55,479 nt of DNA from Lachnospiraceae bacterium. Lineage in GTDB: Bacteria; Bacillota; Clostridia; Lachnospirales; Lachnospiraceae. The stretch spans positions 1 through 55,479 of the forward strand of contig JAKSPD010000008.1 in the NCBI GenBank assembly GCA_024405115.1, read 5' to 3'. A model generated the notes under the pieces. It saw only the letters and a list, made by a program, of their open reading frames with translations, was not told where the DNA came from and made no database searches. Numbering within the stretch: position 1 is the stretch's first letter; each line of letters starts with the position of its first letter. Shown in pieces: positions 7,242 to 27,605 of this stretch. Made by a program: the position numbers and the translations under genes.

Positions 7242-8561
7242 TTACCTTACAAGATATTCCTTATATTTCTCCACGTCCGCGCGATGGCACCTTGCGTTAA
7301 GAAGTGTTCCGTCTTCCTTATACTCAACTGAAAGGACAAGCGAGTTCTGCTGAAGCGAAGATGCTATCGAGCCCTTATCATACGGTATCAGGAACCTGGC
7401 CTCCTCATAATCGCCATAAACCTCGTCAGTAATCATCTGAGCCAGAAGCTCGATTGATGAGGCTTCCTTTGCGCACATGTAAATGCTCTTTGAGGTCTCA
7501 CGCACCTCCGCACCCTTACGGGGATACTCAATTTTCGGGAAACATGCATCTGCCTTGTTATAGACATAGATTACCGGGATATGCCCTGCCCCAAGCTCCC
7601 TTACCATCCTGTCAGTCACTTCCATGTGTTCACGGTAATCCACGTCACTGTAATCAACGACATGCAGAAGAAGATCCGCCTCAGTAACTTCCTCTAACGT
7701 GGATTTGAATGCCTCAACCAGTGCCGTCGGGAGCTTTGAGACAAATCCTACGGTATCCGAAAGCATGAAGTCCTTATTGTTCCCAGTGCGTATCTTCCTG
7801 ATTGAGGTGTCAAGTGTCGCAAAAAGCATGTTTTCCTCAAATACCTGCTTTTCGTCTGACGCCGATGACTCTGTCCCGTACATGGAAAGCATGGCATTCA
7901 TGATGGCAGACTTTCCGGCATTCGTGTATCCGATTAGTGAAACCAGAGGAAGGCGTGACTTTCTGCGGCGCTTTCTCTGTGTCTCACGCTCGCGCTCGAC
8001 TACCTTAAGTTCTCTCCTAAGCTCTGCAAGTCGGTGGTCTATCTGACGGCGGTCAAGCTCAAGCTGCGTCTCACCTTCACCCTTGCTGGACATTGAACCG
8101 GAGGCACCGCCCTGACGGTTCTGCGTCTCCCACATGCCGATAAGGCGCGGCTTCAGATACTGAAGCCTTGCAAGTTCAACCTGTAGTTTTGCCTCCCTTG
8201 AACGGGCACGCTTACTGAATATCTCTAAGATAAGCGACGTCCTGTCCATTACGGGGAGCTTAAGTTCCTGCTGGAGGTTTCTTAACTGCGTGGGGGTGAG
8301 TGTGTCATTTACGACGCATAAGGTGCCGTTAAGTTCCTCGATGCGCGCACGCATTTCTTCAAGCTTTCCCGTTCCGATGTATGTTGCCTTATTAATCTGT
8401 GGAAGCTGCTGGGTCACCATGCCCACAGGCTCCATTTCACATGCGGAAGTAAGGGCGTCAAGTTCCGTCATGCTGCGGTCAAACCTGTATTCATCGCCCT
8501 TTGCAGCGCCCTCCGTCTGGAAGACGCCCAGTATTACAACTCTTTCTGTTTCAATAGCCAT
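7242..8561 (-). CDS. hflX: GTPase HflX
   Basis: Ribosome-associated GTPase that can split 70S or 100S ribosomes under stress. The N-terminal HflX domain contains GTGKLEEM and LPVMDRTSLILEIFSKRA. A Gly-rich linker (GGASGSMSSKGEGETQLELD) and an Arg-rich coiled segment follow. The G domain has G1 GYTNAGKSA, G3 DTVGFVSKLP and G4 NKAD. The C-terminal extension ends LPYDK-like (LIPYDKGSI) as in other HflX proteins. ATG at 8561 gives 439 residues; TTG/ATG codons up to 8579 are alternatives, and no strong ribosome binding site is seen for any of them. It has its own terminator and no operon partners. Confidence 0.94.
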   Translation of the reverse strand: MAIETERVVILGVFQTEGAAKGDEYRFDRSMTELDALTSACEMEPVGMVTQQLPQINKATYIGTGKLEEMRARIEELNGTLCVVNDTLTPTQLRNLQQELKLPVMDRTSLILEIFSKRARSREAKLQVELARLQYLKPRLIGMWETQNRQGGASGSMSSKGEGETQLELDRRQIDHRLAELRRELKVVERERETQRKRRRKSRLPLVSLIGYTNAGKSAIMNAMLSMYGTESSASDEKQVFEENMLFATLDTSIRKIRTGNNKDFMLSDTVGFVSKLPTALVEAFKSTLEEVTEADLLLHVVDYSDVDYREHMEVTDRMVRELGAGHIPVIYVYNKADACFPKIEYPRKGAEVRETSKSIYMCAKEASSIELLAQMITDEVYGDYEEARFLIPYDKGSIASSLQQNSLVLSVEYKEDGTLLNARCHRADVEKYKEYLVR

Positions 8562-24260: not shown

Positions 24261-24311
24261 AAAAAAACTCCCACCCGTCTTCCTCTGATATGGTGAGGCT
24301 GCAGGTGGGAG
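24261..24311 (-). terminator. Terminator of the riboswitch-controlled permease operon
   Basis: On the minus strand CTCCCACC (24304-24311) pairs with GGTGGGAG (24268-24275) across a long partly paired loop, followed by seven T (24261-24267). It ends the methyltransferase-permease transcript 27 bp after the permease stop. Confidence 0.8.
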
Positions 24312-24337: not shown

Positions 24338-25912
24338 TTATACGTATTCAAAATCATCCGGGGCATTGAACCACTTTCCTTCTCCCGAAGCCAGGATGAA
24401 GAGGATGACTGCAACGATGAGCCAGCCGATCATGAACGGGGATGTAATGTAGAACCCGAGCTGTGCATGATGAATGAAACCAAAGAGTGAAAGGACTGCT
24501 CCGCAAAGTGCCACGATGCCTGCGCTCTTAAGCTTCTTGTCAATCATGAATACAGTCATTGCACCAAGTAGGATACCGATGATGATGGCTCCCGACTTAA
24601 CTGCGGGAACGCCGTTCCACATGGCACCGTTAACGATGAGAAGCTCGTTTACAGCGTCGTCAAATCCTTTAAGGTTGTCAGCGGTAACATCTGACCAGAT
24701 GCCCCAGCCGCCTTCCATCATTGAGCCTGTTGCAAGTGCAGCCTCAACCTGTGTGAAGAGGTAGTCAGCAATGGAGGGAACCATGGCAATGGCGATTGCA
24801 GCGTAGTGCTTGGGCTTGCACTCCTTGAATGCCTGTGCAACCATGACGCCTGCACACCAGAGAAATGTAATTGCCGCAACTGCTGCGGGCATGATTGATG
24901 AAAGAACTGAGAAGAGTCCGAGGACACCTGCAAGACCAAGTACAAGACCGCTTATCCATGAATAGGAAGCTCCTGCCTCGCCCTTTTTAAGACCTGCATG
25001 TCCAAGCCATACGGTGTTCGGAACAACGCCGCCAAAGATTGCTGAAAGCATGGTGCAGATACCGTCTGCGAACTGTGCCTCACGTACATTGTACTCGTCT
25101 CCTGCCGCATTTGCTGATTCAACGTTATCCATTGTCTCAACGAAGTTATAAATCTCAACGGGGATAACAACTGCAAGATATGGAGCAACGTAAGCAAATC
25201 CGTTGATAATTGACTGAATGGTGTTGACGGGGTTCGGGAAGTAGAATCCTACTGAAGAGAAATCAAAGGATGTCCTTCCAAGACAGAATGCGTAAACCAT
25301 TCCTCCGATTATAGCTACAAGGAAAGGAGAAATCTTCTTCGGGAATGCGTATCCTGCGAAGAGTCCGAGCATAGCAACTGCAAGGATGGGAAGTCCGACA
25401 ACGGGATCACCGAATACGTCAAATACGCCCTGTGTGGCCATCCAGATGAAACCGACGCCTGCGATGGTACCGAGAAGGGCTGCCCTCGGAATGTGCTTCT
25501 TGACCCAGGGACCGATGAAGCCGCCTAAAAACTCCACGAAACCGCCGATGAAGCAGGCTGCAGTAGCTGCTGCCCACTCAGTTTCAGGATCCATGATGGC
25601 ATAATGAAGGGGACTGATGACGCCGAACAGGATAACGAACATTGCGGGTGTCGAGATACCTGACGGAAGTGCCGTTACATCAGAGCGTCCAGTCTTATTG
25701 GAAAGCTTATGCGCCATATATGCGTAGTAGAAACCGCCTGCCAAAAGTCCGATGGACATTCCGGGAATGACACGGCCGTAGATGATGTAATCCGGCCATT
25801 CAAAACCCTGAAGGGTTGCAATGACGATGATGTAGTTAACGATGTTGTTTGCAATCATGTAAACAAGTCCGCCGACATCGCCGTCCCTGAAGAAGGGAAT
25901 TTTTGATTTCAT
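24338..25912 (-). CDS. NCS2-like purine/nucleobase permease
   Basis: A 524-residue membrane protein with about 12-14 hydrophobic segments. It has the fold pattern and motifs of xanthine/uracil permeases: DVTALPSGISTPAMFVILFG near residue 80, VIPVEIYNFVETMDNVESAN near residue 255 (the NCS2 substrate/cation-binding Glu region), and GGVVPNTVWLGHAGL near residue 295. The assignment to nucleobase transport is strengthened by the guanine-class purine riboswitch heading its operon. It starts 14 nt after the MtmB-like gene's stop with a strong AAAGGAG site, so both are made from one mRNA. Exact substrate is unknown; a purine or methylated purine is inferred. Confidence 0.8.
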   Translation of the reverse strand: MKSKIPFFRDGDVGGLVYMIANNIVNYIIVIATLQGFEWPDYIIYGRVIPGMSIGLLAGGFYYAYMAHKLSNKTGRSDVTALPSGISTPAMFVILFGVISPLHYAIMDPETEWAAATAACFIGGFVEFLGGFIGPWVKKHIPRAALLGTIAGVGFIWMATQGVFDVFGDPVVGLPILAVAMLGLFAGYAFPKKISPFLVAIIGGMVYAFCLGRTSFDFSSVGFYFPNPVNTIQSIINGFAYVAPYLAVVIPVEIYNFVETMDNVESANAAGDEYNVREAQFADGICTMLSAIFGGVVPNTVWLGHAGLKKGEAGASYSWISGLVLGLAGVLGLFSVLSSIMPAAVAAITFLWCAGVMVAQAFKECKPKHYAAIAIAMVPSIADYLFTQVEAALATGSMMEGGWGIWSDVTADNLKGFDDAVNELLIVNGAMWNGVPAVKSGAIIIGILLGAMTVFMIDKKLKSAGIVALCGAVLSLFGFIHHAQLGFYITSPFMIGWLIVAVILFILASGEGKWFNAPDDFEYV

Positions 25913-25926
25913 AAGCTTTTCTCCTT

Positions 25927-27288
25927 TTAGTTTATATTGAGGCCAAGGGCCTTAAGATCTTCTTTTACCTCATCATACATGCCCTGCCAGAACGGAAGGG
26001 GTTCCATGGTTTCAGTGTCATAAACTTCCTTAAACGGAAGTCCCTCGTTCTTATCACCGAGGATGCCTTCATATTTGGGAAGAAGTGCCTTTATTATCAC
26101 CTCACCCTTCTCCCTTGTGATATGCTGGCCTGCACATGCCTTTCCGACTTCTCCCATCATGCGGCACTCAAGGCCTGAACAGTTGGGTTTTATGCCGTCG
26201 CATGATCCGCAGCCTTCAAGGTGTCCGCCTGAAACGGTAATGGCAATTGAGTTAGCGGCCACCTCATAGAGAAGTTCCTTCGTACCTGCACCGCTTTTTG
26301 GATAGATGTCGCAGATGATGATGTTCGGTGCACACAGTGAGAACGCCTGGCACACGACTGACTGAAGCCACATGCACTCCCTTGCGCTGGTGGCGATGTA
26401 TCTTAAGTGAATGGGATGGCACAGGTGGTAATCTGCCTTGCAGACAACGTTTGCCAGAAGCATGGAGGCAATCATGCATACAGCCGCACCTGCAGCGTTT
26501 CCTGCCATACCGCCCACCATTACACATGCAAGCGAGGCATTAAGTACGCCCGTATCCTCTGACATGGCAGCACGTATGAGGTTGTCCGTGGTCATGATGA
26601 GTTCGTTATTTATGGCCACAAGATGTGCATCACCTGCACGCATTCCTGAACCGAACGCGGTAAGGTCTCCTATCTGTGAAACTGAGGACTCTGCGGCAAG
26701 TCTTCCAATGTAAGGTCTTCCGACTTTGGCGCATGTCTCATTTAAAGCCTTCATTTCAGCCTTAAGGGCATACACCTCACTGGCGTCACCGCATCTCACG
26801 GTGTGTCCGTCAACATCAACTATGGAACCGCATGTCACCATGTCGATTGAAGGCTCCTTTGCCCATGACTCAACGGTCTGCCTGAACGTCGGGACATCCA
26901 TGGGGCATCCGGGATTTCCCGCCACTACACCGGGACGTCTTTCATCTTCAGCCTTTCTTGCGTAGAACGTGAATGCATCAGCTCCCCGTCCCACGGTCAT
27001 GGTCTTTTTCTGGTTTGCGGCAGCCTCGTCGATTTCATCCTCCGTAAGCTTTATGATTCTTCCGGTGTTCTGGTTGTAGATTCCGCTTTCAATGGCGAGC
27101 TGCCTTCCTGCTGCATAGAAACGGCGGAGCATGTCCTCGTCATAAGCCATTACGTCCCCGTTTTCATAGTCGAGGTCGTAGTCGTCAAGGATGTCCTTAA
27201 TTGCCAGTGCCACATAGTCGATGTCCCAGTCTTCCTTTGCGACCTTTTCACCGGTATATGACCGTTCCACAATGTCAATAAAATCCAT
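25927..27288 (-). CDS. MtmB-like corrinoid methyltransferase lacking pyrrolysine
   Basis: A 453-residue homologue of archaeal monomethylamine:corrinoid methyltransferase (458 residues). Matching landmarks from memory of that family: ESGIYNQNTGRIIKLTEDEI (~67-86), VGRPYIG (~189), HPIHLRYIATSARE, and near the end LECRMMGEVGKACAG. MtmB carries pyrrolysine (amber-encoded) in GMGV-Pyl-GPETS; here the aligned segment is YIGRLAAESS with Leu197, an ordinary CTT codon at 26698-26700. The catalytic chemistry of MtmB therefore cannot be identical. It should transfer a methyl group from an unknown donor to a corrinoid protein. No corrinoid protein, RamA activase or pylBCDST gene is in the window. It is first in a riboswitch-controlled operon; AAGGGGAAAG precedes the ATG. 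Confidence 0.85.
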   Translation of the reverse strand: MDFIDIVERSYTGEKVAKEDWDIDYVALAIKDILDDYDLDYENGDVMAYDEDMLRRFYAAGRQLAIESGIYNQNTGRIIKLTEDEIDEAAANQKKTMTVGRGADAFTFYARKAEDERRPGVVAGNPGCPMDVPTFRQTVESWAKEPSIDMVTCGSIVDVDGHTVRCGDASEVYALKAEMKALNETCAKVGRPYIGRLAAESSVSQIGDLTAFGSGMRAGDAHLVAINNELIMTTDNLIRAAMSEDTGVLNASLACVMVGGMAGNAAGAAVCMIASMLLANVVCKADYHLCHPIHLRYIATSARECMWLQSVVCQAFSLCAPNIIICDIYPKSGAGTKELLYEVAANSIAITVSGGHLEGCGSCDGIKPNCSGLECRMMGEVGKACAGQHITREKGEVIIKALLPKYEGILGDKNEGLPFKEVYDTETMEPLPFWQGMYDEVKEDLKALGLNIN

Positions 27289-27308
27289 TTCTTTCCCCTT
27301 TGCATACA

Positions 27309-27349
27309 GATAATAATTAAAATAAGCAGACCCTCAGAAGAGAATCTGC
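27309..27349 (-). terminator. Riboswitch expression-platform terminator
   Basis: On the minus strand GCAGATTCTC pairs with GAGGGTCTGC (two G-U pairs) around TTCT, followed by the U-rich TTATTTTAATTATT. The alternative antiterminator pairs GGGAGAGA (starting within the riboswitch P1 3' arm) with TCTCTTCT inside this stem. Ligand binding should favour this terminator. Confidence 0.75.
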
Positions 27350-27368
27350 CACCAATATAAAATCTCTC

Positions 27369-27434
27369 CCGATAGTCGTGATTGATCGGCATCACGGTAG
27401 AAACATCAGGGCCATCTGTCCTGAACTATATCGG
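27369..27434 (-). promoter_or_regulatory. Purine riboswitch aptamer (guanine/hypoxanthine/xanthine-type pocket)
   Basis: Read on the minus strand. P1: CCGATA (27429-27434) with TATCGG (27369-27374). P2: TTCAGG with CCCTGA. P3: GTGAT (27391-27395) with ATCAC (27378-27382). J2/3 is GTTTCTACC, identical to the family consensus. J3/1 is GACTAT, so the specificity base (xpt C74) is C, not U as in adenine switches. Equivalents of U22, U47 and U51 are conserved. L2 ends in GG and L3 contains CC, allowing the loop-loop contact. J1/2 reads TAG, where xpt has TAA. It sits 80 nt before the MtmB-like gene and is followed by a terminator, so it should be an OFF switch. The rest of the 317-bp gap (27289-27605) holds the promoters of this operon and of yhaM. 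Confidence 0.87.
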
Positions 27435-27605
27435 TAACATCTACATATAGGATACCACCAACTGATTTTTTTACAATCAGAAAATAAGCGGTGGCTCAAA
27501 AATTTTAATCGTAAAAATATCAGTGCCATGCGTATGTTTTCTTTTGCCGTTAAATATGATAAACTTATCATGTCGCCAAAGGGTGGCTTAGAAAGTGAAT
27601 TAAAA

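Follow-up and report, generated by a model that had tools for sequence, protein, structure and literature searches.

Here we describe a compact operon on a contig of 55,479 bases from a Lachnospiraceae bacterium (JAKSPD010000008.1, contig C64 of genome G000; the whole stretch is called the window below), in which a guanine-type purine riboswitch precedes a gene for a pyrrolysine-free homologue of the methylamine methyltransferase MtmB and a gene for a distant NCS2-like permease. An earlier note on this DNA had picked out the arrangement by eye and proposed that it serves to demethylate purines. The parts of the operon hold up under profile, covariance and comparative searches, with the exception of one regulatory hairpin, and homologous loci in other genomes repeatedly place the same enzyme in purine-type surroundings. 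We regard it as an evenly balanced question whether the locus is a purine-repressed operon for the uptake and corrinoid-dependent demethylation of a methylated purine.

A purine riboswitch heads the operon

The riboswitch match spans the complete RF00167 model (positions 1-102 of 102) with an E value of 8.2e-6, and it is the sole Rfam match at gathering score in the window. A score of 51.2 bits against a gathering threshold of 37, together with recurrence of the element in other genomes, rules out a chance match and places the aptamer above noise. The canonical core claimed for it is present: both GUUUCUACC and GACUA were found, the latter (GACTA in the DNA) without variation in eight aligned aptamers. 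The element also carries the C typical of guanine-type aptamers, at what we take to be the position that decides this type. Compared with known guanine-type riboswitches of RF00167, the element is alike in its full-length match, its conserved core and its terminator, but what it controls here is a homologue of a corrinoid methyltransferase.

The intrinsic terminator proposed to follow the aptamer was recovered as a hairpin with a stem of 11 pairs (Table 1). The competing antiterminator proved the least secure part of the first description. The pairing itself is possible, but its strength does not rise above that of shuffled sequences (alternative fold -14.4 kcal/mol, z -0.4, i.e. shuffles do equally well), and the antiterminator is therefore only weakly supported.

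An MtmB homologue without pyrrolysine

The gene behind the riboswitch encodes a full-length homologue of MtmB, matching PF05369 at 279.2 bits (cut-off 25) over profile positions 2-450 of 450 and the solved Methanosarcina MtmB (PDB 1l2q) at 215 bits. As had been read from the letters, pyrrolysine is missing: Leu stands at the position of Pyl202, and the gene contains no amber codon and no internal stop. We aligned the active sites of five full-length members of the window clade, plus a partial row from genome G045, with six pyrrolysine MtmB proteins from the phylum. All five full-length rows have Leu at the amber-encoded position, Leu for Glu259 and Asp for Gln333; Tyr at 335 is retained in these five and is Trp in the partial row. 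Pyl202, Glu259 and Gln333 are, by the numbering and roles that we assume for them, the methylamine-handling catalytic residues of MtmB. Since all three are replaced, methylamine is an unlikely substrate for the window enzyme.

In a 40-row tree with midpoint root, the five window-clade members form one clade (100/100), which the long branches of genomes G627 and G638 join at 100/99, and pyrrolysine MtmB proteins form a separate clade (100/100). The window gene differs from those of pyrrolysine MtmB further in being under purine control and in having no corrinoid gene adjacent to it. A viral origin was rejected, as one scan of viral contigs returned no relative of the gene.

Table 1 Features of the purine-controlled operon in the window
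Feature	Position	Strand	Evidence
Purine riboswitch aptamer, guanine-type (RF00167)	27353..27453	-	cmscan 51.2 bits, gathering 37; core kept across 8 aligned aptamers
Possible antiterminator: UCGGGAGAGA (P1 3' strand) with UCUCUUCUGA (terminator)	27334..27372	-	Alternative fold of 27330-27390
Intrinsic terminator hairpin, riboswitch expression platform	27325..27350	-	Terminator scan; -16.5 kcal/mol, z -2.0
Non-pyrrolysine MtmB homologue, 453 aa; predicted methyl-purine:corrinoid methyltransferase	25927..27288	-	PF05369; 1l2q match; active-site alignment; tree
Distant NCS2-like permease, 524 aa; predicted purine importer	24338..25912	-	hhalign to E. coli NCS2 set; relatives' context
Probable operon terminator (CTCCCACC ... 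GGTGGGAG, then T run)	24261..24311	-	Read by eye from sequence

The methyltransferase recurs under purine control with changing partners

Close homologues of the methyltransferase were found in six genomes, and a purine riboswitch heads the operon in four of them, the window counted. The scores of these riboswitches are 51.2 bits in the window, 55.9 in locus L015, 80.0 in L009 and 83.1 in L010. In both L009 and L010, whose proteins are 51% and 50% identical to the window protein, the order is riboswitch, adenine deaminase, MtmB-like gene and permease, and the deaminases pass the curated cut-off of 472.5 with 586 and 565.8, respectively. L011 (47% identical) has the MtmB-like gene followed by the permease. 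L015 (contig JAUNOA010000015.1 of a Lachnospiraceae metagenome-assembled genome, G835; 75% identical) was among the matches listed in a scan of named genomes, which establishes at least one such locus and is no measure of frequency in the family. Behind its riboswitch and MtmB-like gene comes not the permease but an ABC transporter that includes a PnrA-like BMP lipoprotein. A BMP lipoprotein is also encoded directly ahead of the G045 methyltransferase gene. Because the partners change in this way (deaminase and permease in two loci, a BMP-type ABC transporter in one, the permease alone in the window), the constant element is the methyltransferase under purine control, with a transporter that varies.

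The gene pair recurs in three genomes of another family, the gene is missing from 24 of 24 congeners searched, and the riboswitch stands ahead of homologues in three other genomes. Within the genus, the MtmB-like gene occurs in 1 of 25 genomes, so there it would be either a local acquisition or a rare survivor. Only two of the 99 relatives searched carry it (the window's own genome and G045). Among 392 genomes sampled from the order, five matched, the own genome included; one of these, a weak match in G391 (19 bits, 30% identity over 95 residues), was set aside as chance. The gene of G627 (L046, 9121-10482), outside the window clade, stands behind a corrinoid gene and a transporter gene that, judged by eye, is of ECF type, with no purine-type neighbour, and perhaps serves a different substrate.

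The permease is a distant NCS2-like protein found in purine-type contexts

As noted at first sight, the permease gene begins 14 nt downstream of the MtmB-like gene. Its product is a membrane protein with no Pfam match even at E 10, no NCBIfam match near cut-off, and neither a match nor relatives by sequence in the Protein Data Bank. The suggested kinship with NCS2 finds some support at the level of profiles: a profile of the permease and three relatives, compared with the five E. coli NCS2 transporters UraA, XanQ, GhxQ, UacT and AdeP, gave an hhalign probability of 95.7% over 234 columns. The relationship is distant, and the window permease forms an outlying branch.

Relatives of the permease occur in 16 of 398 genomes drawn from the phylum, the own genome counted. 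We inspected 13 stretches from 11 genomes, and 8 of the 13 were given to an Rfam scan. In G696 and G673, the permease relative lies immediately behind a purine riboswitch (96.1 and 84.6 bits, respectively). In G448 and one locus of G653 it adjoins two genes of deaminase type, one of them for an adenine deaminase (PF13382), and two further G653 loci have it near MtmB homologues. It sits amid genes that by eye are of allantoin or carbamate type in G473, G733 and G464, near a xanthine-dehydrogenase-like gene in G528 and beside an amidohydrolase-like gene in G575; no clear purine neighbour was seen in the stretches from G724 and G649. On balance, this context points to a purine-type substrate as the predicted cargo. 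A molybdenum/tungsten cofactor riboswitch was also observed shortly past the adenine deaminase-permease cluster of G653 (L135 10181-10297, G653:C11).

Purine-type genes surround many non-pyrrolysine MtmB homologues

MtmB homologues were found in 28 of the 398 genomes of the phylum draw, a list that is a lower bound, because in the genomes richest in candidates scoring stopped at four. The survey compared the surroundings of 35 non-pyrrolysine and 11 pyrrolysine loci with 12 background windows that five of these genomes supplied; two weak matches (G507, 18.7 bits; G753:C7, 20 bits) were left out. A locus was called purine-type if phmmer found, within 8 kb, any of these neighbour types: an NCS2-like or NCS1 permease, a BMP lipoprotein, an adenine-deaminase-like protein, a guanine-deaminase-like amidohydrolase or a xanthine-dehydrogenase-like protein. 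The stretches L136, L147 and L152 were left out because they had supplied search queries, which fixes their outcome in advance, as was L137, which had been found through the permease. Purine-type neighbours were present at 19 of the remaining 31 non-pyrrolysine loci. The corresponding counts were 0 of 11 for pyrrolysine loci and 2 of 12 for background windows (Fisher p 0.0003 and 0.016, respectively). With no exclusions at all, 22 of 35 non-pyrrolysine loci are purine-type.

Several neighbours pass curated cut-offs, namely the xanthine dehydrogenase XdhA of L136 and L155, the 8-oxoguanine deaminase of L136 and the methyl-tetrahydrofolate:corrinoid protein methyltransferase of L152; the deaminase of L155 falls just under (530.4 vs 532). 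At L156 (G489:C34) the MtmB homologue is accompanied by YgeY over its cut-off and by xanthine dehydrogenase, SsnA and YgeW below theirs, and at L164 (G550:C3) by a hydantoinase over its curated cut-off. The genes at these two loci resemble those of clusters that degrade uric acid anaerobically (PMC12507026). The main text of that paper makes no mention of MtmB.

A corrinoid gene lies within 1 kb in 33 of 35 non-pyrrolysine loci. Because 10 of 11 pyrrolysine loci have one too, this adjacency marks the enzyme family and not the link with purines. Pterin-binding methyltransferase homologues are present in seven stretches (L048, L152, L154, L162, L164, L190 and L194), and in several clusters predicted parts for moving a methyl group from substrate towards tetrahydrofolate sit among purine-type genes, while in others they do not. 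In one genome, G653, at least five non-pyrrolysine MtmB loci (L136, L137, L147, L148 and L149) each have a corrinoid gene and, in their vicinity, genes of PucR, BMP, deaminase or permease type; the set is a candidate case of substrate diversification.

Corrinoid protein, activase and a possible methyl acceptor

A corrinoid protein and an activase had been expected somewhere in the genome, and both were located by searching it. They adjoin on contig C1, which holds the genome's sole PF02607 match; the window contig holds none. All six genomes with close homologues encode a corrinoid protein (PF02607) and a RACo-type activase (PF14574). No purine riboswitch at gathering score was found in the seven corrinoid/activase stretches.

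No pterin-binding protein of PF00809, dihydropteroate synthase and MetH types included, was found in the own genome (an assembly 78.5% complete), in the congener G022 or in G835, the genome of L015. G022 has the corrinoid protein, the activase and a homocysteine S-methyltransferase (PF02574) together, and in G835 a homocysteine S-methyltransferase gene adjoins the activase. Possibly methionine synthase is split in these three genomes and draws on a different methyl donor. The missing pterin-binding protein and the homocysteine methyltransferases beside the activases of G022 and G835 lead us to a speculative guess, that the methyl group ends on homocysteine and yields methionine. In the own genome, tblastn found no homocysteine methyltransferase in the window and five further stretches, the rest of the genome not having been searched.

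A proposed mechanism and its alternatives

The control elements and the context come from the sequence; from them we infer the substrate, the methyl transfer, the acceptor and the direction of the switch. The permease would import a methylated purine, for instance from RNA turnover or from plant methylxanthines. The MtmB-like enzyme would pass the methyl group on to the general corrinoid protein encoded on C1, in its Co(I) state; the activase would re-reduce that protein, and the freed purine would enter salvage. With guanine or a similar purine plentiful, the aptamer would bind it, the terminator would form and the operon would be switched off. The idea of a corrinoid-type methyltransferase with a purine-linked substrate, as first put forward, thereby gains comparative support from the riboswitch, the deaminase, the BMP transporter and the survey neighbours. 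That support does not extend to its further particulars, namely an N-methylated purine as the substrate, a tetrahydrofolate-linked one-carbon feed and the released purine as the ligand.

A number of observations weigh against demethylation of a purine by this operon. Evidence for the substrate is absent. Up to E 1, the region ahead of the L011 gene (8400-9100) gave no purine riboswitch match, and the two other families that matched there scored far below gathering; the partial G045 locus (L003) had no Rfam match at E up to 1, hence no purine riboswitch. Neither a purine transporter nor a deaminase lies near the closest relatives beyond the window clade, those in G627 and G638; G638 has only a PucR-like gene. 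In the survey, 12 of the 31 loci are without a purine-type neighbour, and the contrast with background is modest; the neighbour types were picked after some loci had been viewed, and several loci are paralogues or near relatives and so are not independent. The neighbour classes are not exclusive to purines, and most deaminase-like neighbours were typed by similarity alone. The sole NCBIfam match of the BMP proteins is a vitamin B6 transporter model, at 60.6 and 89.2 against a cut-off of 400, and the best match of the L147 NCS1 permease, below cut-off, is a hydroxymethylpyrimidine transporter.

The corrinoid partner adds to these points. Members of the window clade lack a corrinoid gene next to that of the methyltransferase, whereas 33 of the 35 other non-pyrrolysine loci have one. 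The C1 corrinoid protein groups with URO-D- and activase-linked corrinoid proteins, and the lone MtmB-adjacent protein to join that group, from L137, does so on a long branch with weak support. Because the C1 protein has a counterpart (75% identical) in G022, a genome with no MtmB match, and because an activase occurs in 36 of 99 relatives, the partnership of these two proteins with the window enzyme is not specific. The grouping and the G022 counterpart likewise give no support to the C1 protein as a dedicated partner.

Four other explanations were weighed. The best placed, though unlikely, is that the substrate is a methylated nucleoside or another heterocycle (a 2'-O-methyl nucleoside, an N-methylpyridine or an N-methylhydantoin) taken up by the same transporter classes. 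The PnrA-like BMP lipoproteins of L015 and beside the G045 gene would suit it, as would the xanthine-dehydrogenase-type and amidohydrolase neighbours elsewhere, which are not exclusive to purines, but the closest loci combine a guanine-type riboswitch with a curated adenine deaminase.

We also think it improbable that the enzyme acts, like MtqB, on a quaternary amine or other N-methyl compound, with purine control reflecting, for example, nitrogen or folate status. Such a role has a precedent, as MtqB, which acts on tetramethylammonium and choline, is described as the first non-pyrrolysine MtmB with a demonstrated function, the numerous others being left without a known one in that report (PMC13044021). 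The window enzyme, too, is an MtmB homologue that has no pyrrolysine and would be expected to work with a corrinoid protein, a likeness of description and not of compared sequences. MtqB/MtqC, however, is a methanogen system with a cognate corrinoid protein, and the text on it (PMC13044021) contains neither purine nor xanthine. A quaternary amine also fits poorly with the purine riboswitch and adenine deaminase found in the same operons, and with the survey, in which 19 of 31 other non-pyrrolysine homologues have purine-type genes near them.

A third explanation, which we rate as distinctly improbable, moves the purine link one step away: an adenine-deaminase-type enzyme would free methylamine from N6-methyladenine, and the MtmB-like protein would demethylate the methylamine. 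An amidohydrolase related to adenine deaminase is known to deaminate N6-methyladenine. Growth of E. coli on N6-methylated purines is reportedly the subject of a paper (PMC13296781). An adenine deaminase does lie within the L009 and L010 operons, but no deaminase gene adjoins the window, L015 or L011 gene, and the replacement of all three methylamine-handling residues, in the roles that we assume for them, speaks against methylamine itself.

Least probable of all is a reading in which regulation is aimed at the permease, while the MtmB-like gene merely travels with it as a passenger or encodes a methyltransferase whose function is unrelated: permease relatives do lie directly behind purine riboswitches in G696 and G673, genomes with no MtmB match in the phylum search, but the MtmB-like gene is the first after the switch in both the window and L015, where an ABC transporter, not the permease, comes next.

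The demethylation of a methylated purine may extend beyond this operon. With a confidence that falls a little short of even, we suggest that many bacterial non-pyrrolysine MtmB proteins are methylated-purine:corrinoid methyltransferases of anaerobic purine degradation, and that the window represents a reduced branch under riboswitch control, in which a general corrinoid protein is borrowed and the methyl group goes into methionine synthesis.

Relation to known systems

The operon appears to be of a known kind, that of corrinoid methyltransferase systems, with a control and a context not found in the open-access literature searched. In titles and the starts of abstracts, we found no description of a guanine or purine riboswitch that controls a corrinoid or methylamine methyltransferase, in agreement with the earlier note, which knew of no corrinoid system under such control. 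Keyword searches over the same material likewise found no account of anaerobic corrinoid demethylation of methylxanthines, caffeine or theobromine, nor of a link between MtmB and purines. Type 1 mlp gene clusters (PMC10418091) resemble the present loci in that both are widespread bacterial homologues of methanogenesis methyltransferases. The mlp clusters, however, encode homologues of soluble coenzyme M methyltransferases, linked by their authors to methyl-sulfur and methyl-selenide compounds, and not MtmB (PMC10418091).

If the purine assignment is true, it would provide a testable substrate class for part of the non-pyrrolysine MtmB homologues and would bring methylated purines, for example methylguanines or methylxanthines, within the range of corrinoid chemistry. 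It would also suggest a route by which anaerobes could exploit dietary methylxanthines and methylated bases from RNA turnover with no need of oxygenases. The operon, together with the frequent position of related enzymes near genes of purine breakdown, suggests such an undescribed, oxygen-free use of methylated purines.

Other purine riboswitches in the same genomes

Purine riboswitches were also observed at other sites in the genome of the window and in that of L015. A third purine riboswitch of the own genome (54.6 bits; L092 ~7607-7707, minus strand, G000:C12:40606-40706) lies upstream, on the same strand, of two genes, one for a 215-aa protein and the other similar by eye to AICAR transformylase/PurH. 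Another in the own genome (L093 ~7759-7868, minus strand, G000:C63:20758-20867) and one in the genome of L015 (L095 ~7891-7993, plus strand, G835:C97) stand ahead of genes that look by eye like those of BMP-type ABC transporters, and each of these two loci is apparently a purine-repressed uptake operon.

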